Positions 93 to 46,705 of a stretch of DNA of 57,453 nucleotides are shown here, one piece after another. Position numbers and translations under genes: made by a program. Below the pieces are notes generated by a model. That model had not been told where the DNA came from. It worked only from the letters and a program-made list of their open reading frames with translations, and did not search any database. The stretch spans positions 1 to 57,453 of the forward strand of contig JAFGMI010000027.1 of assembly GCA_016927595.1 (NCBI GenBank), written 5' to 3'. How positions within the stretch are numbered: the first letter of the stretch is position 1; every line of letters begins with the position of its first letter. The stretch is from Melioribacteraceae bacterium (GTDB taxonomy: Bacteria > Bacteroidota > Ignavibacteria > Ignavibacteriales > Melioribacteraceae).

Positions 93-268
93 GTAAGGTT
101 CAAAAGTTTAAGTAGATCATAATTAATGACAAGTATTTGATTTATATGTATTTCTAGAATTTTTTTCGATAAATAAAATAACCGTTTTGAAGTTTTGATA
201 ACAAAATATTTGAACAGTACAGACGTATCAAGTTAAAATTATGTGAACTTATTTCTTATGATTTTGAT

Positions 269-1699
269 CTAATTAATCAATATTTCATGCGTTCGCATAG
301 CGCGGGGATATTGACTTTTTAATCCTTCCTTTGTACCGACTGCAGTTCCCAGAAAGTAGCCATTGTACTTTATAACCTTGTAACCAGCTTGATTTGTAAT
401 ACCTTTAATTATTCCGCCGGTCATGTAGGTTTTAAGTTCATCTGTAGTTGTAAGCTCGATTATATTTTGGGTGATATGTTCTTTAAATGATTGAATAGCC
501 AGAGAATTAAGAACGATGTTTCCGCGGTTATCTACCGTACCGAACTTCGTTCCGATGCGTGAATAAAGAGAAAGATCATCACTTTGCCAATTGGCGTTAA
601 TATAGTTAATGTCACGGCTCTTCATTATGAAGCGGAAGTTATCAAATACCTCTAAAGATATACCGTAATACTCCGATAAGTTCTGCAGGTGATGTCTGAT
701 ATCCTTATGCTTCGAATTAATAATCCGCAGCTTTGTTTCCCCTGTTGAGATTTTTGCGGGTACTTCAGTTGTACCGGTCTTAACAAGCTTTGCAATAAAA
801 AATCCTTCCGAATTAATTTCCCACGGAATAATTCGTCTCGCTTTTGCGATTTGAGGATTGAGCTGCGCTCCTTTGTATTCTGTAAATGCCTGATGAGACT
901 TAACGGGAAGCCCGATATCAACCAGTTCAACGGGATATCTTTTCAACACGGTATTCAATATAAGTTCGTTCTCTTCAACGGTTAATGTACAGGTAGAATA
1001 TACTATTTCACCACCGACTTTAGCCGACTTAACGGCGCTTACCAGAAGACGCATCTGAGTGTCGCTTATCCTCGAAACCGAATCCTCGTTCCACCAGTTG
1101 CTTATCTCGCCCCTCTTCTGAACAATACCCAATCCGCTGCAGGGCGCATCAACAAGAATTTTATCGAAGTAGTGATTGAAATGTTTGCTTAATATTTCAC
1201 CCTGTTTCTGACTAACGCCCATGTTAACGATATTCAACCGGTCGAGATTATAAACAAGGCTTTTAATCCGCTTCGGACTCGGTTCGTTCGCGTAGAATGT
1301 GCCGGTATTATTCATCATTTCTGCAATTTGTGTGGACTTAGAGCCTGGCGCTGCGCACATATCAAGCGTTACGTTATTTTTGCCTGCATCTAATACAATC
1401 GGCGGAATCATTGACGACAGGCTTTGTATATAATATTTGCCAATCGTGTACTCGAGCGTTTTACCCAGCTTCTCATAACCAGATAACACTTTATAAGCGA
1501 AAGGAATGGATTTATGCTGTTCGAGCTCAACGCCGTAAGAGGCAAGTTTTGGTATAATGGTCTTGCGTTCATCAAAATTAAGCGGGAGTCTTAAATATAT
1601 TTCGGCATCCTGTTCAATATAACTTCTGAAATTATTAAGAAATTCTTCGCCGAAAGTTTTAAGAATATAATCAGAAATATTTTGGCTTAATTCGATCAA
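269..1699 (-). CDS. RsmB/RsmF-type 16S rRNA (cytosine-C5) methyltransferase
   Basis: SAM-dependent RNA m5C methyltransferase of the NOL1/NOP2/Sun family, cytosolic. The SAM motif DMCAAPGSK lies at residues 113-121, the motif IV cysteine at 187 in DAPCSG, and the catalytic TC motif at 236-237 in YSTCTLTVEENE. Residues 1-90 form the usual N-terminal RNA-binding segment. The region after about residue 310 resembles the C-terminal PUA-like domain of RsmF, and the 476-residue length fits RsmF better than RsmB. The start is a TTG four bases after the stop of the upstream gene; no strong ribosome site is seen. It is the last gene of the long minus-strand run that begins at the Fur-family regulator. 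The exact target cytosine cannot be read from the sequence. Confidence 0.88.
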   Translation of the reverse strand: MIELSQNISDYILKTFGEEFLNNFRSYIEQDAEIYLRLPLNFDERKTIIPKLASYGVELEQHKSIPFAYKVLSGYEKLGKTLEYTIGKYYIQSLSSMIPPIVLDAGKNNVTLDMCAAPGSKSTQIAEMMNNTGTFYANEPSPKRIKSLVYNLDRLNIVNMGVSQKQGEILSKHFNHYFDKILVDAPCSGLGIVQKRGEISNWWNEDSVSRISDTQMRLLVSAVKSAKVGGEIVYSTCTLTVEENELILNTVLKRYPVELVDIGLPVKSHQAFTEYKGAQLNPQIAKARRIIPWEINSEGFFIAKLVKTGTTEVPAKISTGETKLRIINSKHKDIRHHLQNLSEYYGISLEVFDNFRFIMKSRDINYINANWQSDDLSLYSRIGTKFGTVDNRGNIVLNSLAIQSFKEHITQNIIELTTTDELKTYMTGGIIKGITNQAGYKVIKYNGYFLGTAVGTKEGLKSQYPRAMRTHEILIN

Positions 1700-35319: not shown

Positions 35320-37542
35320 TTGGATAACGCGAAGAACAACGTCATCGGCTTCGGGACTGCACCGGTCTTTTTTGCGGCAATTTCAACAATACTCGGCGCT
35401 ATTTTATTTTTAAGATTTGGATTCGCTGTTGGTACTCTCGGTTTTTTCGGCGTTCTTCTCATTATTATTGTCGGTCATTTAGTAACTCTTCCGACTGCGC
35501 TCGCCATTTCCGAGATAGCAACAAACCAGAGGGTTGAAGGAGGCGGCGAGTATTTTATAATCTCACGATCATTCGGATTAAATATCGGTGCGACAATCGG
35601 TATTGCGCTGTATCTGTCGCAGGCAATTAGTGTTGCGTTTTATATTATTGCTTTCACCGAAGCGTTTTCGCCGTTGTTCGACTGGGTAAAAACAACTTAC
35701 AACCTCGATCTTCCGAGACAGGTGATAAGCGTACCAAGCATGCTTGCTTTATCAGCACTTATAATAAAGAAAGGTGCAAACCTGGGAGTTAAAGCTTTAT
35801 ACATAGTTGTAACTATACTTGCCGTATCATTAGTCGCATTTTTTTTAGGTTCAAGCGATTATTCATCAACATCAGAGCTGGGATTATTTGACAGATCATT
35901 CAGAAACTCCAACCAATTCTTTCTGGTATTTGCAATAGTATTCCCTGCATTTACCGGCATGACCGCCGGCGTTGGTCTTTCGGGAGACTTAAAGGATCCC
36001 AAAAAATCAATACCTCTTGGAACACTTGCGGCAACACTTGTCGGTATGGTTGTATACATTGCTGTAATTTGGAAACTTTCGGGTTCCGCTGCTCCGGAGG
36101 ATCTTATTAGCGATCAATTAATTATGGGAAAAATAGCATTGTTCGGTAATGTCCTAATCCCCATCGGATTAGCTGCATCAACATTATCGAGTGCAATTGG
36201 TTCCATCCTTGTTGCCCCTCGCACTTTACAGGCAATCGGGCTTGATTCTTCATTTCCCATAATGCCGCTGAATAAATACATTGCAAAAGGCAGGGGCGAA
36301 GTAAACGAGCCGCTTAACGCAACCATTATTACCTGTGTAATTGCTGTTGTATTTGTTGCGCTCGGAGATGTTAATGCTGTTGCAGAAATAATATCGATGT
36401 TTTTTATGGTAACATATGGTTCGATTTGTCTGATTTCATTCCTTCATCATTTCGGTTCCGATCCTTCTTACCGTCCGACTTTCAGATCGAGATGGTACTT
36501 TTCGCTAATAGGGTTTACCTTATGTATTTGGCTGATGTTTCAGATGAATCCAACATACGCCGTTCTTTCAATATTTATCATGGTGCTGATGTATCTCGGT
36601 ATTGATAATTATCATACATCGCGCAAAGGTCTCGAGGCAATTTTCCAGGGAGCAATTTTTCAATTAAGCCGTACTTTGCAGGTTTATTCTCAAAAATCCA
36701 ACAAACTGCGAAAAACCTGGCGCCCGTCGGCAATTTGTGTTTCAAAAGATTCTTTCGAAAGAGAAAAAGCTTTCGAATTACTAAACTGGATATCTCACAA
36801 ACACGGGTTCGGCACGTATATACATCTTATCGAAGGTTATTATTCAAAAACTTCTACGATTGAGGCGAAAAAAGTCCTGGATAAACTGATTAAAAGATCA
36901 AGCAAGATCGGCGGAAATCTTTATATCGATACATTGATTTCACCCTCTTATACATCTGCAATTGCACAGGCAATACAGCTGCCGAGTCCCTCGGGTATGG
37001 ACAACAACATGATAATTTTCGAATACGATAAAAAGACCCCGCTCAACCTGGACCAGATAATAGATAATATTGCATTAACCCAAGCCGGCTCGTACGACGT
37101 GTGCGTGCTTGGGTCTTCTTCGAGAACTGTCAGACCGGAAAATGGTATTCATGTCTGGATACAGAATCTTGGTGATGAAAATGCCGGTCTTATGATTTTA
37201 TTAAGTTACATAATACTTGGACACCCGGACTGGTCTGCGGGACACATAAAAATATTCAGTGTCTGCGCTCCTGGTGAAACAGAGAATGTTAAAAAAGATC
37301 TGAACGATTTTGTTATTTCAGGCAGGCTTCCGATTACGGAAAAAAACATACAAGTTATCGAACGCGACGAAAACCTAAGCTTTAAGTCCCTTGTAAACTA
37401 CAACTCGCATGATGCAGCTTTAACACTTATCGGTTTCAGAGAAGAATTAATAAAGCACGAAGGGACTTCGTTTTTTGAAGGCTATGATAAAATTGCAGAC
37501 GTCCTTTTTGTGGACGCTTTCAGCAAAAAGGAGATAGAATAA
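35320..37542 (+). CDS. APC/SLC12-type transporter with cytoplasmic C-terminal domain
   Basis: A 740-residue secondary transporter. The membrane half (residues 10-440) has about 12 segments with the amino-acid/cation-chloride pattern: APVFFAAISTILGAILFLRFGFAVG in helix 1, then EGGGEYFIISRSFGLNIGATIGIALYLSQAIS, and FAIVFPAFTGMTAGVGLSGDLKDPKKSIP for helix 6 and its loop. The soluble part from about residue 460 to the end resembles the C-terminal domain of cation-chloride cotransporters (SLC12-like) more than simple amino-acid permeases. The start is a TTG with GAAAGG about nine bases upstream. It stands alone. The solute is uncertain: cation/chloride or amino acid. Confidence 0.8.
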   Translation: MDNAKNNVIGFGTAPVFFAAISTILGAILFLRFGFAVGTLGFFGVLLIIIVGHLVTLPTALAISEIATNQRVEGGGEYFIISRSFGLNIGATIGIALYLSQAISVAFYIIAFTEAFSPLFDWVKTTYNLDLPRQVISVPSMLALSALIIKKGANLGVKALYIVVTILAVSLVAFFLGSSDYSSTSELGLFDRSFRNSNQFFLVFAIVFPAFTGMTAGVGLSGDLKDPKKSIPLGTLAATLVGMVVYIAVIWKLSGSAAPEDLISDQLIMGKIALFGNVLIPIGLAASTLSSAIGSILVAPRTLQAIGLDSSFPIMPLNKYIAKGRGEVNEPLNATIITCVIAVVFVALGDVNAVAEIISMFFMVTYGSICLISFLHHFGSDPSYRPTFRSRWYFSLIGFTLCIWLMFQMNPTYAVLSIFIMVLMYLGIDNYHTSRKGLEAIFQGAIFQLSRTLQVYSQKSNKLRKTWRPSAICVSKDSFEREKAFELLNWISHKHGFGTYIHLIEGYYSKTSTIEAKKVLDKLIKRSSKIGGNLYIDTLISPSYTSAIAQAIQLPSPSGMDNNMIIFEYDKKTPLNLDQIIDNIALTQAGSYDVCVLGSSSRTVRPENGIHVWIQNLGDENAGLMILLSYIILGHPDWSAGHIKIFSVCAPGETENVKKDLNDFVISGRLPITEKNIQVIERDENLSFKSLVNYNSHDAALTLIGFREELIKHEGTSFFEGYDKIADVLFVDAFSKKEIE

Positions 37543-38017: not shown

Positions 38018-39130
38018 ATGAACAACACAAATGACGATCAGAATGTCTTTACTACCACCGAGAAACCTTATGATCTTATAGACGGCGCTTCGGCACCGGG
38101 TTTCGAACTTGCCGTTGATGTAGAGAGGCTCAAAAAAATCATTCGCGATCCCGATATCTCTTTTGAAGAGAGGATAGAGGCATTTGAAGATGTTATTGAC
38201 TCCGAGGTCGGGGACACTACCCTATACCGCGCCCGAAACATCGAGCGTGAGATCGGTCTTCGGCAAATATATCTGAAGTTTGAGGGTGGCAATCCTACGG
38301 GAACACAAAAAGACAGAATTGCATTCGCGCAGGCAAAAGATGCTTTGAGACGAGGATATGATACTATGATGCTTGCAACGTGTGGTAATTACGGCGTTGC
38401 CTGTGCACTTGCAGCTTCTATTGCCGGCTTAAGATGTATTATACATGTACCTGAAACATACCACACGAGGAGAATAAAAGAGATGACAGACCTGGGCGCT
38501 GAAATAGTCCGCGTTCCGGGCGACTACGAAACCTCGGTTGGATTCTCGTCTGAAATAGCAAAGGAAAAAGAATACTATGATGCCAATCCCGGTGGAGATA
38601 ATATCACAATACAGCTTACAGCATATGGTGAGATTGCATATGAAATTTACGACGAGTTGCGAGATTCACCGAAAATTGTTGCGGCTCCCGTTTCTAACGG
38701 TACTCTCCTGGCGGGTCTTTACAAGGGATTTATAAGCTTATACAGAAGGGGTAAAACTTCACGCATGCCAATGTTTGTAGCCGGCTCATCATTTAAAAAG
38801 AATCCAATTATTCAGGCATTTGTATTAAATAAAAAAAACTGTGAGGATCTTTCGCCGGAAAAAATTAAAGAATCAAAAATTAATGAACCATTAATTAACT
38901 GGCATTCTATTGACGGTGATTTTGCGCTCGATGCAATAAGAAAATCCCGCGGCTGGGCTTCGAACGCAACCGATAAGGAAATGCTAAATTATTCCAAAAT
39001 GATCAGAGATAAAGAGGGTATGTCAGTACTGCCGGCTTCAACCGCTGGTTTAATCGCTTTAATCAACCAACATAAAAAGGAACTCATTTCAAACGACCGG
39101 TTCGTCGTTGTATTAACGGGGAGAAAGTAA
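38018..39130 (+). CDS. Threonine-synthase-fold PLP-dependent enzyme
   Basis: PLP enzyme of fold type II, 370 residues. VGDTTLYRARNIEREIGLRQIYLKFEGGNPTGTQKDRIA (residues 64-102) carries the Schiff-base Lys at 98. MLATCGNYGVACALAASIAGL follows as the phosphate/substrate loop and VAAPVSNGTLLAGLYKGF as the PLP-phosphate Gly loop. It is closest to threonine synthase but lacks the usual N-terminal extension and comes without hom or thrB. The last codon overlaps the ATG of the DUF1611 gene (TAATG). It is the first of four tightly packed genes and likely makes or breaks an amino acid used by the others; the substrate is unknown. Confidence 0.82.
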   Translation: MNNTNDDQNVFTTTEKPYDLIDGASAPGFELAVDVERLKKIIRDPDISFEERIEAFEDVIDSEVGDTTLYRARNIEREIGLRQIYLKFEGGNPTGTQKDRIAFAQAKDALRRGYDTMMLATCGNYGVACALAASIAGLRCIIHVPETYHTRRIKEMTDLGAEIVRVPGDYETSVGFSSEIAKEKEYYDANPGGDNITIQLTAYGEIAYEIYDELRDSPKIVAAPVSNGTLLAGLYKGFISLYRRGKTSRMPMFVAGSSFKKNPIIQAFVLNKKNCEDLSPEKIKESKINEPLINWHSIDGDFALDAIRKSRGWASNATDKEMLNYSKMIRDKEGMSVLPASTAGLIALINQHKKELISNDRFVVVLTGRK

Positions 39131-40233
39131 TGGAATCACTTCCAAATGGAAATGCAATAATATATTGTGAGGATGCGTTCAACACCACTAACGGGAAAAC
39201 TGCGCACGGACTTGTAAGATTTACCAACAGATATAAGGTGCTTGCGGTTATTGATTCAAAGTATCGTGGTCAGGACGCTGGAATGGTGCTTGATAAAAAG
39301 CCGAACAACGTGGGTATATTTGACAGTTTAACCGAAGCATACGATAAATATTCGAATACGGACACGCCCGCAACACATTTTGTTATCGGGTTGGCTCCCG
39401 ATGGAGGAAGGTTGCCGGATAATGCTAGAAAGGTGATTAAAAGTGCCATTAAGTTGGGTCTGCATATTGATTCGGGCTTACACGATTTTCTTTCGGACGA
39501 CAAAAAAATTATGGGTCTTGCATACGATTATGGTGTTAAGATAAGGGATATCCGCAAGCCGCCGTCGCGAGATGAATTACATTTTTTTTCAGGGAAAATC
39601 GATGAGGTTACTTCCTATGTGGTTGCTGTTCTGGGTACGGATTCAGCAATAGGTAAAAGAACAACCGCATGGATCGTTGTTAATGCACTTAAAGAAGCGG
39701 GTTACAAAGCCGAATTAATAGGCACCGGTCAAACAGCCTGGATGCAGGGTGCCCGGTATAGCATAATAATGGATTCGTTGATTAATGATTTTGTCTCCGG
39801 TGAAATAGAGCATGCGGTTCATAGTTGCTGGACGGAGCAGAAACCTGATTTTATAGTTATCGAAGGTCAGGGAAGTTTGTTGAATCCTGCTTATCCCGGG
39901 GGATTCGAAATAATGGCTGCCGGAAGACCCGATTCAATAATACTACAGCATGCGCCTGCAAGAAAAGAATACGATGGTTTCCCTTACTATACAATGCATC
40001 CGCTGTCTAAACAAATTAAGGCTGTTGAAATAATATCGGGGAAACCAGTAATAGCAATTACGCTGAATCATGAAAAAATGACTCAGAAAGAAATTGATAA
40101 GCAGGTTACGGAAATTTTAAAGCTTCATGATCTGCCTGCTTTCGACGTGCTTCTTCATGGCGCAGATAAACTGATTAAGACAATGCTTTCACATAGGAAG
40201 AAAATTATTGAGGAAAGAAATAAAAATTATTAA
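39130..40233 (+). CDS. DUF1611 P-loop protein (DgcN-like)
   Basis: A 367-residue DUF1611 protein. The N-terminal Rossmann-like domain includes NGNAIIYCEDAFNTTNGKTAHGLVRF, FVIGLAPDGGRLP and HIDSGLHDFL. The P-loop domain has VAVLGTDSAIGKRTTAW (P-loop at 169-179), then ELIGTGQTAWMQG, DFIVIEGQGSLLNP and IILQHAPARKEYDGFP. The family includes DgcN, described as a D-glutamate N-acetyltransferase that works with the racemase DgcA; an epimerase of that superfamily is encoded in this operon (42634-43701). The specific substrate here is inference. The gene overlaps the PLP enzyme gene by one base and is followed after three bases by the fusion gene. Confidence 0.82.
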   Translation: MESLPNGNAIIYCEDAFNTTNGKTAHGLVRFTNRYKVLAVIDSKYRGQDAGMVLDKKPNNVGIFDSLTEAYDKYSNTDTPATHFVIGLAPDGGRLPDNARKVIKSAIKLGLHIDSGLHDFLSDDKKIMGLAYDYGVKIRDIRKPPSRDELHFFSGKIDEVTSYVVAVLGTDSAIGKRTTAWIVVNALKEAGYKAELIGTGQTAWMQGARYSIIMDSLINDFVSGEIEHAVHSCWTEQKPDFIVIEGQGSLLNPAYPGGFEIMAAGRPDSIILQHAPARKEYDGFPYYTMHPLSKQIKAVEIISGKPVIAITLNHEKMTQKEIDKQVTEILKLHDLPAFDVLLHGADKLIKTMLSHRKKIIEERNKNY

Positions 40234-40236
40234 GAG

Positions 40237-42591
40237 ATGGGGCAAATGACACCCGAACAAAATGAAATAAAAAAACTGGTTGTTCTCGATACGCTCGAAG
40301 TTGGTCCGGTATTATTAGAGAAGAGAAGAATGATTGCTCCATATAAAGTAATTAATAAAAATCGTATTGAGACAAAGGAGTTTATTTACAGTTACGAAGA
40401 GGATGTGTTCAACCCTTCTGACAATTCGCATTTAAATATTGCTTCGGTAATGGCGGCTCAGGTTGCATTAAACTACGGACTCTTTTTTAAAAAAATTATT
40501 TTTCGCGGTTTATACGACAATGCGGATAAATCCGCATTAAAGGATTGGGCTGAAAACACATCCAGAGAAATATTTGTTAAAAAATTCCTGGAGCCGAATC
40601 CCTTCCTGACCGGCGATGTGAAATCTCTTAAACCGGTTAAATTAAAAAATTATTTAAATGCCTCTCTCGAGTTCCCGGATACAAATCCTGACCCGGTAAA
40701 AACCAAATGGGAATTTTGGATAAATGATAAATCTAAGCATTGTATTCTGTCCAGCGGGGGTAAAGACAGCCTTTTAAGCTACGGATTAATAAATGAGCTC
40801 GGTTATGATACTCATCCGATATTTGTAAACGAATCGGGCAGGCACTGGTTTACAGCTCTCAATGCATATAACTATTTCAAAAAAAATGTCAAAAACACCG
40901 GGAGAGTATGGGTAAATTCGGACAGAGTGTTTTCGTTCATGCTTCGCCAGCTGCCTTTTATCAGGAAGGATTTTGCGAATGTTCGTGCTGACGAATACCC
41001 GATACGATTATGGACTGTGGCGGTATTTCTGTTTGGTGTTATGCCTCTGTTACGAAAAAGAAAAATCGGCAGGCTTATTATAGGCGATGAATACGATACA
41101 ACCGTTCGAACTAATTACAAAACTATAACTCATTATGACGGGCTTTATGATCAGAGCCGTTATTTTGATGATGCAATGTCTCGATATTTTATGAGAAAGG
41201 GCTGGTCGGTTTCTCAATTCTCAATACTTCGTCCAATGAGTGAGTTGTTAATAGAGACTATTCTGGCAAAACGGTATCCCGAGCTTCAAAAGGAACAGGT
41301 TTCCTGTCATGCTGCACATAAAGAAGGCAATCGTATAGTTCCTTGCGGCAAGTGTGAAAAATGCCGGAGGATTGTGGGTATGCTGTCGGCTATTGATGTA
41401 AATCCCGAAAATTGCGGCTACGGCAGAAAGCAAATAGAGAGGTGTTTAACGTCTCTTGAGGTCAACCCTGTTCATCAGGAGAAAGCCGGTGCTCAGCAGT
41501 TAAATTACATGCTTTTTAATAAGGGATTAATTAATCCTCCTAGAGAGAGTGCTGCTTCGCTTAAGGAAAATGAGGAAGTGCTTCATTTACGGTTCGATTC
41601 GGAGAAGTCTCCCTTATCTGCTATTCCCAACGATATCAGAAAGTCTTTGTATATAATTTACCTCCAGTATGCTCGCGGTGCGCTGATTCGGGTTTCAAGA
41701 AAATGGATTTCATTCGATCCGATTAATGATCCTTCTGCCGATAAAAATTATCCGTTTGAGTTTTCAAACAAGAAAAACTTTTATACCGAACAGTCGGATC
41801 AGCTGCTCAAGAGCAAATATTTATGGGCGGAACTTACCTGGGAAGAAGCTGATAAAAGATTAAAGCAAACCAATATAGCAATTCTTCCGGTCGGCGCCAT
41901 TGAACAACACGGACCGCATCTCCCCCTGGACGTAGATTCATACGACGCAGACTATCTGGCTAAAAAAGTTGCAGAAGCCTGCAGTGATCCCAAACCGCTT
42001 GTGCTTCCCTTGATACCTTACGGTGTTTCTTATCACCACGATGATTTTCCCGGGACTATAAGCGTTACAAATGAAACCTTAAGCAGGATGGTTTATGAGA
42101 TTGGTATGAGTATATCAAAAAACGGGATTAATAAATTAATAATTATTAACGGACACGGCGATAACAGTCCAACTCTAAACTACGCAGCGCAGATGATAAA
42201 TCGTGATGCAAAAATTTTTGTTGCGGTAGATACGGGGGAAACTAGCGATGTAGACCTTGATGATTTATCTGAAACGCCGAATGATGTACATGCCGGCGAA
42301 ATAGAAACAAGTACAACTCTTGCTCTTAGACCCAGATTGGTTAAAATGGATAGGGCTAAAAAAAGTGTTTTGAGTTTTTCTAGCAGGTATTTAAACTTTT
42401 CATCTCTACGCGGCGTTCCCTGGTATGCAAGAACAAAACGTATTTCGGAATCAGGTATTATGGGAGACCCCACCAGGGCATCTTCTGAAAAAGGAAAGCA
42501 AATGTGGGAAATAATGATAGCTCATCTTGTTGCTTTTGTTGAAGACCTAAAAAATTTATCGCTCGATGAAATACATCAAAAGAAATATTAA
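40237..42591 (+). CDS. Fusion of PP-loop ATPase (MurL-like) and creatininase-family amidohydrolase
   Basis: A 784-residue two-enzyme protein. Residues 1-160 form a mixed N-terminal domain. Residues 165-390 are a PP-loop ATP-pyrophosphatase: ILSSGGKDS (170-178), then IIGDEYDTT, ILRPMSELLIETILAKRYPEL (330-350), Cys 357 and CGKCEKC (370-376), a likely zinc site. This order recalls MurL, the ATP-dependent epimerase of the glutamyl residue in UDP-MurNAc-peptide, more than QueC. Residues 530-784 are a full creatininase domain: GAIEQHGPHLP (553-563), NGHGDN (638-643) and HAGEIETS (685-692), which hold the metal ligands. Residues 395-525 link the two. The start could also be ATG 40246. I know of no characterised protein with this fusion. 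Confidence 0.8.
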   Translation: MGQMTPEQNEIKKLVVLDTLEVGPVLLEKRRMIAPYKVINKNRIETKEFIYSYEEDVFNPSDNSHLNIASVMAAQVALNYGLFFKKIIFRGLYDNADKSALKDWAENTSREIFVKKFLEPNPFLTGDVKSLKPVKLKNYLNASLEFPDTNPDPVKTKWEFWINDKSKHCILSSGGKDSLLSYGLINELGYDTHPIFVNESGRHWFTALNAYNYFKKNVKNTGRVWVNSDRVFSFMLRQLPFIRKDFANVRADEYPIRLWTVAVFLFGVMPLLRKRKIGRLIIGDEYDTTVRTNYKTITHYDGLYDQSRYFDDAMSRYFMRKGWSVSQFSILRPMSELLIETILAKRYPELQKEQVSCHAAHKEGNRIVPCGKCEKCRRIVGMLSAIDVNPENCGYGRKQIERCLTSLEVNPVHQEKAGAQQLNYMLFNKGLINPPRESAASLKENEEVLHLRFDSEKSPLSAIPNDIRKSLYIIYLQYARGALIRVSRKWISFDPINDPSADKNYPFEFSNKKNFYTEQSDQLLKSKYLWAELTWEEADKRLKQTNIAILPVGAIEQHGPHLPLDVDSYDADYLAKKVAEACSDPKPLVLPLIPYGVSYHHDDFPGTISVTNETLSRMVYEIGMSISKNGINKLIIINGHGDNSPTLNYAAQMINRDAKIFVAVDTGETSDVDLDDLSETPNDVHAGEIETSTTLALRPRLVKMDRAKKSVLSFSSRYLNFSSLRGVPWYARTKRISESGIMGDPTRASSEKGKQMWEIMIAHLVAFVEDLKNLSLDEIHQKKY

Positions 42592-42633
42592 CAGGTTTTG
42601 GTTATATGGTTATTCCATAATTAGAGAGCAACT

Positions 42634-43701
42634 ATGAAAATAACATCTATTTCTGCTTGCTCTGTAGACATGAAATTAAAAGAGCCTTACACAATTGCTT
42701 ATGAAACCGTGTCGCATACGACTAACATTTTTATTAAGATTGAAACCAATACGGGAATTACTGGCTTCGGTTGCGCCGCCCCCGATCTTCCGGTAACGGG
42801 TGAAACTTCCGGCAGTGTTCTTCGGGCGGTAAAAGATTCAATTGAACCCTCATTAAAAGGGGCTGATCCTCATCGATTAATATATCAGCTGGAAAAGATT
42901 AGAACGCCTTTAAGAAATCAACCTTCGGCAATGGCGCTGGTTGATATGGCATTATTCGATATACTGGGTAAAACCGCGAATCTTCCTCTTTATATACTGC
43001 TGGGTGGTTTCAGGGACAGGATGCGCACCAGCATAACAATTGGAATAATCCCCATTCAAGAAACTCTTGAGAAAGCAGCAGGTTTTGTGCGTGATGGTTT
43101 TAAGATCATCAAACTAAAGGGTGGAAACAATGTTGAGGAAGACATTGAAAAGATAAAAAAGATCCGGGAGAAGGTTGGTCCGACAATTGAATTGCGTTTC
43201 GATGCTAACCAGGGATACTCCGTAGAAAATGCTATTCTTTTCGTAAAAAAGACAAAGTCAGAAAAAGTGCAGATACTCGAACAGCCCACACCGAAAGGAC
43301 AACCGGATCAACTGCGGCTAATAACCGATGTTGTGCCTATCCCTGTTATGGCTGATGAAAGTCTGATGGATCTCAGGGACGCTTTTCGTCTTGCCAAAAA
43401 AGGTCTTGTTGATACCGTTAACGTAAAGCTTATGAAAGTCGGTGGAATAAATGAGGCAATGCATATTAATTCTGTTGCTAAAGCAGCTAACCTCGAAGTA
43501 ATGGTTGGGTGTATGGATGAATCTGCTTTGTCTATAGCCGCTGGTCTCCACTTTGCTCTCGCAAAACCCAATGTTGAGTACGCTGATCTTGACGGTCATT
43601 TAGATTTAATAAACGATCCTGCTGCTGGTGCTGTTGTTTTAAAAGAAGGCATTCTCTTTCCAACTAATCTGCCAGGTCTTGGTTTCAATCTTGATATATA
43701 A
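42634..43701 (+). CDS. Enolase-superfamily dipeptide epimerase / DgcA-like racemase
   Basis: A 355-residue muconate-lactonising subgroup enzyme. All active-site positions of L-Ala-D/L-Glu epimerases are kept: KxK at 160-162 in IIKLKGG, metal ligands Asp 190 (RFDANQGYS), Glu 216 (ILEQPT) and Asp 241 (VMADESLMD), the second base Lys at 268 (VNVKLMKVGG), and the C-terminal MDESALSIAAGLHFA and YADLDGHLDL. These bind the substrate amino group in dipeptide epimerases. It would invert the alpha carbon of a glutamate-like residue. It lies 42 bases after the fusion gene and is the last enzyme of the operon. Confidence 0.88.
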   Translation: MKITSISACSVDMKLKEPYTIAYETVSHTTNIFIKIETNTGITGFGCAAPDLPVTGETSGSVLRAVKDSIEPSLKGADPHRLIYQLEKIRTPLRNQPSAMALVDMALFDILGKTANLPLYILLGGFRDRMRTSITIGIIPIQETLEKAAGFVRDGFKIIKLKGGNNVEEDIEKIKKIREKVGPTIELRFDANQGYSVENAILFVKKTKSEKVQILEQPTPKGQPDQLRLITDVVPIPVMADESLMDLRDAFRLAKKGLVDTVNVKLMKVGGINEAMHINSVAKAANLEVMVGCMDESALSIAAGLHFALAKPNVEYADLDGHLDLINDPAAGAVVLKEGILFPTNLPGLGFNLDI

Positions 43702-43734: not shown

Positions 43735-44025
43735 ATGATTGCATTATGGAGCAGTTTTGTTTTACTTATAATTTTACTATTAGCGCTCGGTTTGGGGGTG
43801 TTCAACGGAAAAACGCACGTTATTAACATAAAGGACTGTTGCAATATATTATATAAATGAATTACACTGGTTTAATGTTGGCCTGGAAAATAATTATAAC
43901 CTGAACGGGGAACAGGCGGCTTTTCAATACATCCACGGTTATCTGATATTCGCTTATTGTAATTTATGTGGTTCTGATGTTCGGAATTGTATCATCGCTT
44001 TACAGAAAAGAATTATCGGACTGAT
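43735..44025 (+). pseudogene. Frameshifted small membrane-protein gene
   Basis: A strong ribosome site (AGGAG at 43724-43728) and ATG at 43735 open a 41-codon frame, MIALWSSFVLLIILLLALGLG and onward, ending at 43860. Just before that stop a second frame carries on: AIYYINELHWFNVGLENNYNL, then QAAFQYIHGYLIFA. A third frame then gives LIVIYVVLMFGIVSSLYRKEL and stops at 44025, right at the terminator. Joined, the pieces make a coherent protein of about 95 residues with a membrane helix at each end. Two single-base shifts best explain this. If the shifts are sequencing errors the gene is intact. The family is not recognised. Confidence 0.5.
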
Positions 44026-44047
44026 AACAGTCCGATAATTTTTTATA
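44013..44047. terminator. Bidirectional terminator between convergent genes
   Basis: An 11-bp perfect stem (44013-44023 with 44030-44040, six-base loop) is followed by TTTTTTA. It lies right before the end of the minus-strand trpB2 gene, so it probably serves both strands. Confidence 0.85.
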
Positions 44048-45421
44048 TTATCTTTCTATTCGCGGTGTCTGCAGTTCGTTAAGTCCGGCATACAGTTCTT
44101 CATGAGTTAATTCGTGATCTTCAAGTTTTCCATCGAAGTAATCCTGGTAAGCTGACATATCTAAATAGCCGTGTCCGCAAAGATTAAACAGTATGGTTTT
44201 TTCTTTGTCCTCTTCTTTTGCCTTGTTGGCTTCGCGGATCACCTGTGCAATTCCGTGAGTTGCTTCGGGAGCAGGCAATATGCCTTCGGTGTTGGCGAAC
44301 TTCACTCCCGCTGCAAAGCATTCAAGTTGGTGTATTGCGCTTGCTTCAACCAGTTTGTCCTTAAGAAGCTGACTTACCAAAACGCTTGCGCCGTGGTAAC
44401 GAAGTCCTCCCGCATGTATAGATTCCGGCACGAACGTGTGACCCAGAGTGTACATAGGCAATAATGGCGTTAAGCCTACCGTATCACCGAAATCATATCT
44501 GAATTCCCCTTTTGTTAATTTCGGGCATGATGCAGGTTCAACAGCAATGCATCTTATGTCTTTTCCATTGGTTAGTTTCTGATTAAGAAAGGGGAAAGAT
44601 ATCCCGGCAAAGTTAGAGCCGCCTCCGAGGGGAGCAATTACTATATCGGGATAATCGCCTGCTTTTTCCATTTGTTTAATTGCTTCAAGACCAATCACTG
44701 TTTGATGCATTAATACATGGTTCAAAACGCTTCCTAAGGAATATTTTTTTTCGCCATTGCTGGTTGCAGCTCTTTCAACCGCTTCTGAAATTGCAATACC
44801 TAAACTGCCCGGTGAATTCGGGCTTTTAGCAAGAATTGCTTTTCCCGATTCCGTTTTATCAGTAGGTGATGAATATACTTCCGCTCCCCATGTGTTCATC
44901 AAAAGTTTTCTGTATGGTTTTTGTTCATAGCTGACTCTTACCATGTAAACTTCCAGGTCGATGCCGAACCTTTCACACGCGAAAGCGAGTGCACTTCCCC
45001 ATTGTCCGGCTCCTGTTTCGGTTGTAAGTTTCCTTACTCCTTCTTTCATGTTATAATATGCCTGCGCTACTGCTGTATTCGGTTTATGCGAACCTGCCGG
45101 GCTGACTCCTTCGTACTTGTAATAAATTTTTGCCGGAGTATCCAATTCTTTCTCAAGATTCGTTGCTCTGAACAAAGGTGTTGGTCGCCATAGTTTATAA
45201 ACTTCACGGACTTCTTCCGGTATTTCAATCCAGCGCTCCTGCGCAATTTCCTGTTTAATTAATTCCATAGGAAACAGTGGGGCAAGATCATCCGGTCCGA
45301 TCGGCTGTTTTGTAACCGGATGCAACGATGGGAGCGGTTTGTTTGGCATATCCGCCTGAATGTTATACCACTTTTCAGGTATTTCTTTTTCGTCGAGTAT
45401 AAATTTCCTGTGCGAAATCAT
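44048..45421 (-). CDS. trpB: Tryptophan synthase beta subunit, TrpB2 type
   Basis: PLP enzyme that joins indole and serine to tryptophan, 457 residues. It has the longer N-terminus of the TrpB2 class ([26 protein letters not shown]). [15 protein letters not shown] comes next and [20 protein letters not shown] puts the Schiff-base Lys at 113. [21 protein letters not shown], the phosphate loop [18 protein letters not shown] and the end motif [13 protein letters not shown] complete the fold. It is not linked to trpA or other trp genes. TrpB2 enzymes often act without TrpA on free indole, or as serine-using salvage enzymes; which applies here is open. A good -7 element lies at 45482-45489. Confidence 0.92.
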
Positions 45422-45558: not shown

Positions 45559-46038
45559 ATGAGCATAATTATTCTTTCAGGACCCGTTCAAAGCAGAAAA
45601 ACAACTTCAATAATTAAGTGGTCAGATTCAAGGTCAGGAGTTGCAGGAATTGTACAGCCCGTTATTGATAATAAGCGACATCTTCAGGACTTAAGCACCG
45701 GGGAAGTCCGTCTGCTGGAAACGGTTGAGAGCGATACGGACAAAATCTCTGTGGGAAAATTTCTTTTTTCAAAAAAAGTTTTGGAGTGGGGAAAAATTTG
45801 TCTTCTCCATTCAATAAAAATTAATCCCGATTGGATCATTCTCGATGAGGTCGGCAAACTTGAACTGAACGACAAAGGATTAGAGCCTGCAGTAGGGTAT
45901 ATAATATCTGAGGCGTCCGGTCAGAATAAATACTCGTTACTGATTGTTGTCAGAAATTATCTTCTGGATGATTTTATTTCCAGGTACGGATTGAAAAGAT
46001 CAAAACTGAAAATTATTAATGATCTGCACGAAATATAA
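45559..46038 (+). CDS. THEP1-like nucleoside-triphosphatase
   Basis: A 159-residue P-loop protein of the NTPase_1/THEP1 type. The P-loop SGPVQSRKTT (residues 7-16) is unusual: the first half is GPVQS rather than GxxGxGK. The Walker B region is DWIILDEVGKLELNDKGLEPAV, the known THEP1 pattern. Its C-terminal end is LLDDFISRYGLKRSKLKIIND. The gene overlaps the next one (ATG at 46019), and the two are translated in different frames. The pairing with a MobA-like protein suggests a shared task in molybdopterin or nucleotide handling; neither is proven. Confidence 0.7.
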   Translation: MSIIILSGPVQSRKTTSIIKWSDSRSGVAGIVQPVIDNKRHLQDLSTGEVRLLETVESDTDKISVGKFLFSKKVLEWGKICLLHSIKINPDWIILDEVGKLELNDKGLEPAVGYIISEASGQNKYSLLIVVRNYLLDDFISRYGLKRSKLKIINDLHEI

Positions 46039-46705
46039 CATTGCCGGTATTTTGATTGCTTCCGGTTATTCTATAAGAATGGGAAAGTTTAAACCGCTTT
46101 TAAATTACGGGGGTCTCTCTTTTTTATCAGGAACGGTGCTGAAACTTTCTCTCGTGTGCAAAAACATAACCGTTGTCGCCGGCTACAGAGGAGAATTGAT
46201 TAAAGAAGAACTGGATAACTTATTCTCTTCACATTATGAAAACGAAATATTAAATAATTACATCGATACAGCTGCTTCAAAAACAAAAACAATATTCAAC
46301 GAAAAATATGCCTCGGGTATGTTTACCTCATTAAAGGCGGGATTAAAAATGACTCCGGGAAATGATTGGTATATATATCACTTCGTTGATCAGCCCGCGA
46401 TCCCGGTTGGTTTTTATCACGATTTTGTGGAAAACATTAATCCGGATTACGATTGGATACAGCCTGTATTTAACAATACAAAATCTCATCCGATTTTATT
46501 GAGCAAAAAAGCAGCATCAAAAATTTTAAGGGCTTCGGATAATTCTAACTTGAAAGATGTCTCTTCGGGTATAAAACAAAAGCTGTTCTGGAATTGTGGT
46601 TACAAAGAAGTTGTTAATGATATTGATCTCTACGAAGAATATTCTTTCCTGGTCAAGTCATCAAACGTCTCTATATTAAACGATATTCTTGAGATTATTA
46701 ATTAA
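46019..46705 (+). CDS. MobA/MocA-like nucleotidyltransferase
   Basis: NTP-transferase of 228 residues in the MobA/MocA group, which adds a nucleotide to molybdopterin. The N-terminal motif IAGILIASGYSIRMGKFKPLL (residues 8-28) is the GxxxRxGxxKxL NTP-binding signature. ITVVAGYRGELI follows, then NDWYIYHFVDQPAIP, where the conserved metal-binding Asp lies. It overlaps the previous gene by 20 bases. No molybdoenzyme gene is in the window, so whether it makes molybdopterin cytosine dinucleotide is inferred from the family only. Confidence 0.75.
   Translation: MICTKYNIAGILIASGYSIRMGKFKPLLNYGGLSFLSGTVLKLSLVCKNITVVAGYRGELIKEELDNLFSSHYENEILNNYIDTAASKTKTIFNEKYASGMFTSLKAGLKMTPGNDWYIYHFVDQPAIPVGFYHDFVENINPDYDWIQPVFNNTKSHPILLSKKAASKILRASDNSNLKDVSSGIKQKLFWNCGYKEVVNDIDLYEEYSFLVKSSNVSILNDILEIIN

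Follow-up and report, generated by a model that had tools for sequence, protein, structure and literature searches.

QueC uses ATP and ammonia to turn a carboxylate into an amide, Cap9 joins a carboxylate to the N-terminus of a protein, QatC is proposed to do likewise, and the QueC family has recently been tied to anti-phage protein modification (PMC13329287). The canonical QueC motifs given in the same source are YxQxHxxE, VPxRN and YPDC, and the terms MurL and creatinin are absent from its main text (PMC13329287). MurL is an ATP-dependent enzyme which forms AMP and works in the L to D direction, and its hosts are described as lacking other genes for D-glutamate formation (PMC8788868); dgcN has been presented as a key gene in a D-glutamate racemisation pathway (PMC12363236), and dipeptide epimerases have been proposed to act in murein-peptide recycling (PMC5808125). 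Here we describe an operon from the genome of a Melioribacteraceae bacterium (3.85 Mb, 99.8% complete), located in a stretch of 57,453 nucleotides of contig JAFGMI010000027.1 (assembly GCA_016927595.1; the whole stretch is hereafter called the window), which encodes a pyridoxal phosphate (PLP)-dependent enzyme, a DUF1611 protein, a PP-loop domain fused to a creatininase-family domain, and a dipeptide-epimerase-like member of the enolase superfamily. With a probability that we would put at a little under 40%, the operon is a dedicated pathway, probably biosynthetic and probably mobile by horizontal transfer, which would make a small amino-acid-derived product, likely D-configured or containing a D-residue, by means of ligation, epimerisation and hydrolysis. 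Each of the enzymes comes from a known superfamily; the combination and its product are undescribed in the literature searched, which left out most subscription papers, and no paper describing the operon was found there.

Conservation and phylogenetic distribution of the operon

A preliminary description of this DNA had proposed an undescribed four-gene operon, whose genes should co-occur in related genomes. The listing of open reading frames (ORFs) contains the four plus-strand ORFs with the spacing reported, a 1-base overlap followed by gaps of 3 and 42 bases, and the families named were borne out by Pfam and NCBIfam (PALP, DUF1611_N and DUF1611_C, creatininase, MR_MLE_N and MR_MLE_C). The unit itself is better counted as five enzyme parts, since the PP-loop and creatininase domains are encoded by separate adjacent genes at some loci (L037, L077, L097, L157, L158 and L159), so that their fusion is optional; the occurrence of both fusion and adjacency links the two domains.

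A scan of a species collection with an alignment of the PP-loop domain gave 153 relatives, of which the best 80 were kept (L040–L119), some of them being records of the same organisms as loci read in the window's taxonomic order. Judged by record titles, these 80 loci span Bacteroidota, Acidobacteriota, Desulfobacterales, Planctomycetota, Gemmatimonadota, Zixibacteria, Latescibacterota and others, although single placements may be wrong since most of the loci are from metagenome bins. The nearest named relatives were mostly Ignavibacteria and Melioribacteraceae, and the named cultured carriers are Flexithrix dorotheae, Desulfosarcina widdelii, D. alkanivorans and NaphS2. The presence of each part was scored by tblastn (at least 45% identity, plus strand, anywhere in the locus) for loci with enough flank. 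All five parts occur together, in a single order and on a single strand, at 46 of the 57 loci assessable on both sides; near the PP-loop gene, the PLP enzyme was found at 67 of 70 loci, the DUF1611 protein at 67 of 73, the creatininase at 69 of 73, and the epimerase at 54 of 63. The gene set is therefore conserved in the neighbourhoods read, as proposed.

Within the window's taxonomic order, the PP-loop protein is present in 9 of 164 genomes; the eight other carrier loci have an identical gene order up to the end of each contig and mostly different flanks. In a phylum-wide sample, the operon was found in 10 of 395 genomes, and at three of the four newly read loci (L157–L159) the PLP enzyme, DUF1611 protein, PP-loop protein, creatininase and epimerase are encoded by five separate genes, while at the fourth (L160) no epimerase adjoins the operon. 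Such a wide spread across phyla, yet with so few carriers in its own phylum, suggests that the operon probably makes something useful.

The median pairwise identity per gene is 58–63% in 49 full-length four-gene sets, the window included, and between the four genes of these sets the pairwise distances show no more than a moderate correlation (Spearman coefficients of 0.41–0.66, with shared ancestry uncontrolled). The tree of the fused protein mixes phyla, with 24 label changes compared with a minimum of 10 and a shuffled mean of 39.6 (71 rows, 58 of them group-labelled), a pattern which fits horizontal transfer but is no proof of it. In a plasmid collection, 374 records match the fused protein and none covers 80% of its length; among the 20 matches listed, it is the creatininase end that matches, over 29–39% of the query.

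The PP-loop and creatininase domains

Pfam gave no match above cut-off in residues 1–513 of the fused protein (QueC scored 12.7 bits against a cut-off of 22), and no significant hit was obtained from the PDB with a sequence profile (best E 0.14). The PP-loop identity of this region is shown by its SGGKDS motif together with the AlphaFold model, for which the mean predicted local distance difference test score was 85.7 for the fusion and 90.2 for the PP-loop domain alone (modelled with alignments of 46 and 37 family rows, respectively). The solved structures with the most similar folds are QatC (Z 14.5; 4.5 Å, 314 residues), QueC (Z 13.2 and 13.1) and Cap9 (Z 12.5), followed by TtuA as the next group (Z 10.3), and the QatC match takes in the extra N-terminal domain. 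K176 and each of the cysteines C357, C370, C373 and C376 are present in all 71 aligned rows, and SGG[KRI]DS in 65 of them. The features by which a fold of the QueC family was recognised, SGGxDS, C(x)nCxxCxxC and a fold match with Z 12.5–14.5, were all found, while the three canonical QueC motifs each occur in 0 of 71 rows, and canonical QueC function was rejected for this reason. The domain thus shares with QueC, QatC and Cap9 the fold, the SGGxDS motif and the C-terminal CxxCxxC motif, but differs from them in lacking the three QueC motifs, in being usually fused to a creatininase, and in its operon setting. By analogy with these enzymes, we infer an adenylating, amide-forming enzyme, which would act on a substrate other than a deazaguanine.

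The PP-loop domain had previously been likened to MurL, but this resemblance proved to be limited to the cysteine motif, and the fold match is with QatC, QueC and Cap9. The MurL profile (NF041275, cut-off 700) reached 20.6 bits, a marginal match (E 0.00013) confined to the 57 residues 324–380; when the genome was searched, it scored 13.3 bits. MurL is not among the fold matches listed, which excludes nothing. The two have in common this weak alignment at the cysteine stretch and, on the side of MurL, the dependence on ATP, but the score is far from the cut-off and carriers of the operon have murI, so membership in the MurL family was rejected. A MurL-like logic could nevertheless be imagined, in which the PP-loop domain would epimerise an adenylated C-terminal residue in one direction and the enolase-type enzyme would act on another substrate of the pathway. 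The use of ATP, the formation of AMP and the L to D direction described for MurL (PMC8788868), as well as the short match at the cysteine motif, would agree with such a scheme, which we nonetheless consider very unlikely in view of the two low MurL scores and of the redundancy of two epimerases in one operon.

The second half of the fused protein is a member of the creatininase family (PF02633, 244.5 bits against a gathering score of 31.3), with a creatininase fold match of Z 26. Residues E556, H558, D567, H640 and E690, which presumably correspond to the metal ligands of creatininase, are present in 71 of 71 rows. The best-scoring named model was that of MftE (TIGR03964), but the score of 149.4 bits is below its cut-off of 172, and membership in MftE was rejected; the creatininase model gave 109.8 bits (cut-off 235). 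The domain has the fold and the conserved metal-type residues of both enzymes but is distinguished from them by these sub-cut-off scores and by its usual fusion to a PP-loop domain.

The epimerase, the DUF1611 protein and the question of D-glutamate

The nearest solved relatives of the epimerase, 3jva, 3rit and 1jpm, were each deposited under the name of an epimerase; we take them to originate from E. faecalis, M. capsulatus and B. subtilis (YkfB), respectively. An alignment of 59 full-length rows (from the window and from 58 loci out of the 80, after incomplete or missing sequences had been dropped) shows K160, K162, K265, D190, E216 and D241 in every row, and the DxD pair D318/D320 in all 57 ungapped rows (two are gapped). 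Therefore, the catalytic features looked for in an L-Ala-D/L-Glu epimerase, namely two catalytic lysines, KxK, three metal-binding acids and the DxD pair, are present, but the arginine at position 24 is not: at this position, occupied by Arg in the Ala-Glu enzyme of B. subtilis, 55 of the 59 rows have Glu, two Gln, one Asp and one Gly. Position 51 is Asp in 57 of 59 rows, and each of the 58 rows without a gap at position 295 has Asp there. Like the dipeptide epimerases of the enolase superfamily, the enzyme has the DxD pair and all the residues for catalysis and metal binding, but E24 replaces Arg24, and none of the epimerase models matched gives a score above its cut-off. Arg24 of the B. subtilis enzyme presumably binds the side chain of glutamate, and 3rit, with which the operon enzyme shares the stretch GCMDES, is in our understanding a cationic dipeptide epimerase, active on Lys/Arg dipeptides and having acids around the C-terminal side chain. 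The pattern at positions 24 and 51 speaks for a cationic residue rather than glutamate, but is no proof.

For comparison, 12 epimerase relatives were fetched from the genomes of 12 loci where parts of the operon are missing; two of these relatives (L133 and L134) are of the operon type. Four others (L136–L139) adjoin a DUF1611 gene 38–40% identical to that of the operon and have Lys or Arg at position 24; L135 and L140, which are not beside a DUF1611 gene, have Lys, and the remaining relatives have Glu (L144), Gln (L141) or Gly (L142 and L143). The four gene pairs to which L136–L139 belong, with a DUF1611 and an epimerase gene each about 40% identical to that of the operon, are situated away from the operon in 4 of the 12 genomes (those of L048, L087, L100 and L103).

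The DUF1611 protein matches PF07755 and PF17396 above gathering scores (208.4 and 77.3 bits), its solved relatives are 2g0t, 2obn and 7xrj, and most of its P-loop residues are conserved in at least 97% of 69 rows. It had been placed, together with the epimerase, in the families of DgcN and DgcA, and a shared theme of glutamate stereochemistry had been read into the operon. The resemblance stands at the family level, while membership was rejected, since the DUF1611 protein reached 146.2 bits with the DgcN model NF041892 (cut-off 480) and the epimerase 152.4 bits with the DgcA model NF042940 (cut-off 400). These models represent the N-acetyltransferase of the D-glutamate pathway and the N-acetyl-D-glutamate racemase, respectively. 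The DgcN/DgcA pathway and the operon have in common a DUF1611 protein with a P-loop and an enzyme of the enolase superfamily, but the operon has additional PLP, PP-loop and creatininase parts and a charge-reversed position 24. For this last reason, pairs of DUF1611 and epimerase genes should not be read as D-glutamate genes. The shared glutamate theme is likewise unsupported, considering Glu at position 24 and Asp at position 51 of the epimerase and Lys or Arg at position 24 of the DUF1611-paired paralogues.

A gene for murI above the family cut-off was found in all 15 genomes searched, including that of the window (nine carriers and six others), so the suggested supply of D-glutamate is unsupported and was rejected as the role of the operon. 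More broadly, D-glutamate supply or salvage of peptidoglycan dipeptides would have the epimerase and the DUF1611 protein act on glutamate or N-acyl-glutamate, with the PP-loop domain as a MurL-like epimerase. This is highly improbable: the family-level matches to DgcN and DgcA (146 and 152 bits), the 20.6-bit match to MurL over 57 residues and the ATP-dependent, AMP-forming action of MurL (PMC8788868) speak for it, but murI is universal in the genomes tested, the cut-offs of 480, 400 and 700 are not approached, Arg24 is replaced by Glu in most epimerases, and the fold of the PP-loop domain matches QatC and QueC.

The PLP enzyme

The PLP enzyme scores 422 bits with the PRK06381 threonine synthase model (NF004996, cut-off 266), which is a database name only. 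A single gene above this cut-off is present in each of nine carriers and in none of six non-carriers; in one carrier (G017), it lies on a small contig apart from most of the operon. K98 is conserved in 68 of 68 family rows. With the ThrC model TIGR00260, the enzyme reaches 104.5 bits (cut-off 167.1), and a separate gene elsewhere in the window's genome passes this cut-off with 295 bits, so the PLP enzyme is not the threonine synthase of this cell, and the threonine-synthase label given to it earlier is unsupported. A gene above the thrC cut-off was found in 14 of the 15 genomes, the exception being a carrier (G025) which has one at 164.9 bits, and the PRK06381-type enzyme is below this cut-off in the eight carriers listed. 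Moreover, the ThrC stretches ASTGN and NPxRxxGQKT, which we believe to lie around the phosphate site, read ATCGNYG and QLTAYGE in the operon enzyme. Thus, fold type II and the PRK06381 match are shared with threonine synthase, but the low TIGR00260 score, the altered stretches, the separate thrC and the distribution among carriers and non-carriers led us to reject the role of the cell's own threonine synthase.

Proposed pathway

From these parts we infer the chemistry outlined here, as well as the order and direction of its steps and its product. The PLP enzyme would supply or remodel an amino acid, and the QueC/QatC-type PP-loop domain would adenylate a carboxylate with ATP and join it to an amine, yielding an amide or a dipeptide. 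The epimerase would invert the C-terminal residue of the dipeptide, a residue other than glutamate and probably cationic (lysine, ornithine, diaminobutyrate, diaminopropionate or arginine-like), and the creatininase domain would cleave an amide bond and release a D-configured or trimmed product. A further ATP- or acyl-dependent step, the least certain of all, may be performed by the DUF1611 P-loop protein.

In a more specific version, which we regard as quite unlikely, the operon would encode an ATP-driven relay making a new, widely shared, D-configured cationic metabolite, with QueC-type coupling of an amino acid to a carrier residue, inversion by the epimerase, release by the usually fused creatininase and, in some hosts, a DUF2179 transporter or sensor. 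Alongside racemases, D-aminotransferases and MurL-type epimerases, such a relay would offer a further route to D-amino acids, and to our knowledge it would contain the first metabolic peptide ligase of the QueC family. The operon as such would bring this family into small-molecule peptide chemistry. The named cultured hosts, the conservation of the set and the predicted residues allow our proposals to be tested directly.

Fold type II PLP enzymes are often lyases, and the same set could instead serve the catabolic salvage of dipeptides or amides with D-residues, where the epimerase would work from D to L, the creatininase would cleave the amide, and the PLP enzyme would degrade the freed amino acid. 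The recycling of murein peptides proposed for dipeptide epimerases (PMC5808125) and the SLC12/APC-type permease found upstream of the operon in the window and at L101 and L106 are consistent with salvage. However, a PP-loop enzyme that spends ATP on forming an amide is at odds with simple breakdown, no constant transporter or regulator was seen among 73 same-strand neighbours, and we therefore consider salvage unlikely.

Several observations weigh against the biosynthetic pathway as we propose it. The fusion of a ligase to an amidohydrolase could mean that the two act on unrelated bonds, or that the protein is a MurL-like ATP-driven epimerase. The charge argument relies on the presumed role of Arg24 in the B. 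subtilis enzyme and on the presumed specificity of the M. capsulatus enzyme; 3rit has acidic residues at positions 51 and 295, like the operon enzyme, yet Arg at position 24. Asp295 does not separate the operon enzyme, since it is common to L135–L141 and hence to the DUF1611-paired paralogues, and L136 also has Glu at position 51, so that the operon epimerase is set apart by position 24 and its constant Asp51 alone.

In addition, the epimerase is absent near the PP-loop gene at 9 of 63 loci, the DUF1611 protein at 6 of 73, the creatininase at 4 of 73, and the PLP enzyme at 3 of 70. The genomes of 12 loci with missing parts, some of which are incomplete bins, were searched for those parts. Some were found elsewhere, in favour of the pathway: the genome of L108 has the PLP, DUF1611 and PP-loop genes at one place and, at a second one, neighbouring creatininase and epimerase genes (66% and 61% identical), so that the set is kept although relocated, that of L107 has a DUF1611 gene (60% identical) on another contig, and that of L100 likewise has one (60% identical) at a different location. 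The genomes of L048, L063 and L110 contained neither a close DUF1611 (best 40%, none and 40%) nor a close epimerase (best 41%, 30% and 41%), that of L081 had no match to the creatininase or the epimerase, that of L099 had no creatininase and an epimerase of 35% identity at best, and that of L102 only matches of 34%; the best epimerases in the genomes of L080, L087, L100 and L103 were 37–41% identical. Since parts are missing from some whole genomes, the relay cannot be obligatory everywhere.

Features and neighbours of the operon

The coordinates of the operon and adjoining features are listed in Table 1. Terminator-like sites in the window numbered 8, against 5.8 expected in shuffles, and the 16 promoter-like sites found, against 17.8 expected, are no more than chance; there was no Rfam match in the window at the gathering score.

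Table 1. Positions of the operon parts and adjoining features in the window.
Feature	Position	Strand	Basis or remark
SLC12/APC-type permease, 475 bp upstream of the operon	35320..37542	+	Pfam/NCBIfam; outside conserved core
PLP enzyme, fold type II (PALP), PRK06381-type	38018..39130	+	Pfam/NCBIfam; K98 predicted Schiff-base lysine
DUF1611 protein, Rossmann-like N domain and P-loop C domain, P-loop GTDSAIGKRT	39130..40233	+	Pfam
PP-loop (QueC/QatC-like) domain fused to creatininase domain, single 784-aa ORF	40237..42591	+	
PP-loop domain, residues 1–513	40237..41775	+	AlphaFold model, fold matches
PP-loop domain subparts: extra N-terminal domain, residues ~16–160; QueC-like core, residues ~165–457			
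SGGKDS ATP-pyrophosphate motif, residues 173–178	40753..40770	+	
Four-cysteine motif C(x)12CxxCxxC, C357/C370/C373/C376, likely zinc site	41305..41364	+	
Creatininase-family amidohydrolase domain, residues 526–784 (Pfam span 531–768)	41812..42591	+	
Dipeptide-epimerase-like enolase-superfamily enzyme (MR_MLE_N+C), E24/D51/D295 pocket	42634..43701	+	
Hairpin of 17 pairs resembling a terminator, between the operon and the convergent TrpB2 gene	44007..44044	+	Consensus match only

Of 77 same-strand neighbour proteins listed, 73 were scanned, with matches to DUF2179 (10), YitT (6), DUF5698 (4), MFS (4), TerC (3) and MscS (3); as no family exceeds 10 of 73, there is no steady uptake system or regulator. 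A BLAST search over the flanks of the 80 loci revealed 16 DUF2179 genes, of the YitT or DUF5698 type, at 15 loci (L051, L053, L057, L058, L060, L064, L065, L067, L071, L075, L082, L101, L108, L111 and L117). Thirteen of the 16, at 13 of these loci, lie within 1.5 kb of the operon, a zone that makes up a quarter of the flanks (191,286 of 762,529 bases); we calculate the chance of such a concentration at a few per million, although some of the loci are close relatives. Channels of the MscS type were found at nine of the 80 loci (at five within 1.5 kb), CorA at four, TerC at three, and SLC12-type permeases at two plus the window, the homologues at L101 and L106 being located 4 bp and 275 bp upstream of the operon; this permease is a possible functional neighbour. 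In 15 genomes chosen by hand, 10 of them for having such a neighbour, DUF2179 genes number 1–4 per genome and 23 in total, and in seven of the nine single-copy genomes the copy adjoins the operon; the window's genome has two, neither inside the window. These neighbours hint at transport or at ion or osmotic balance, and are a lead rather than a result.

They also raise the alternative of osmotic or ionic adaptation, where the product would be an intracellular amino-acid amide or dipeptide resembling a compatible solute, and the membrane neighbours would handle its release or the ion balance. The named cultured carriers are, we believe, marine, which would agree with this, as would the DUF2179 genes at 15 of 80 loci and the MscS, TerC, CorA and SLC12 neighbours. 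However, 65 of the 80 loci have no DUF2179 neighbour, many of their flanks being short, and both DUF2179 genes of the window's genome lie outside the window. Furthermore, MscS and CorA are common genes, and the loci counted are partly related; altogether, osmotic adaptation appears to be on the unlikely side.

Downstream of the operon and convergent with it, the window encodes a TrpB2-type PLP protein (44048–45421, minus strand; TrpB-like, NF009057, 735 bits), followed at 45559–46705 on the plus strand by overlapping genes for NTPase_1-like and MobA/MocA-like nucleotidyltransferase proteins, both below NCBIfam equivalog cut-offs. At two other loci (L048:11402-17372 and L053:2-5163), a common gene cluster near the operon encodes a histone-deacetylase/GNAT fusion, two ATP-grasp proteins similar to D-Ala-D-Ala ligase, and a radical SAM protein similar to lysine-2,3-aminomutase (Pfam assignments of the L048 copies). 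Carbon-nitrogen hydrolases, one kind of which is fused to GNAT, lie near the operon in L037 and L042, relatives of the window's genome (L042:4733-6292, L042:12453-13277 and L037:15760-17280; Pfam assignments of the L042 copies). Upstream of the operon in L043 (4385-5926) and L040 (2957-4495), there is a related protein of about 510 amino acids with a C-terminus resembling a secretion-sorting signal.

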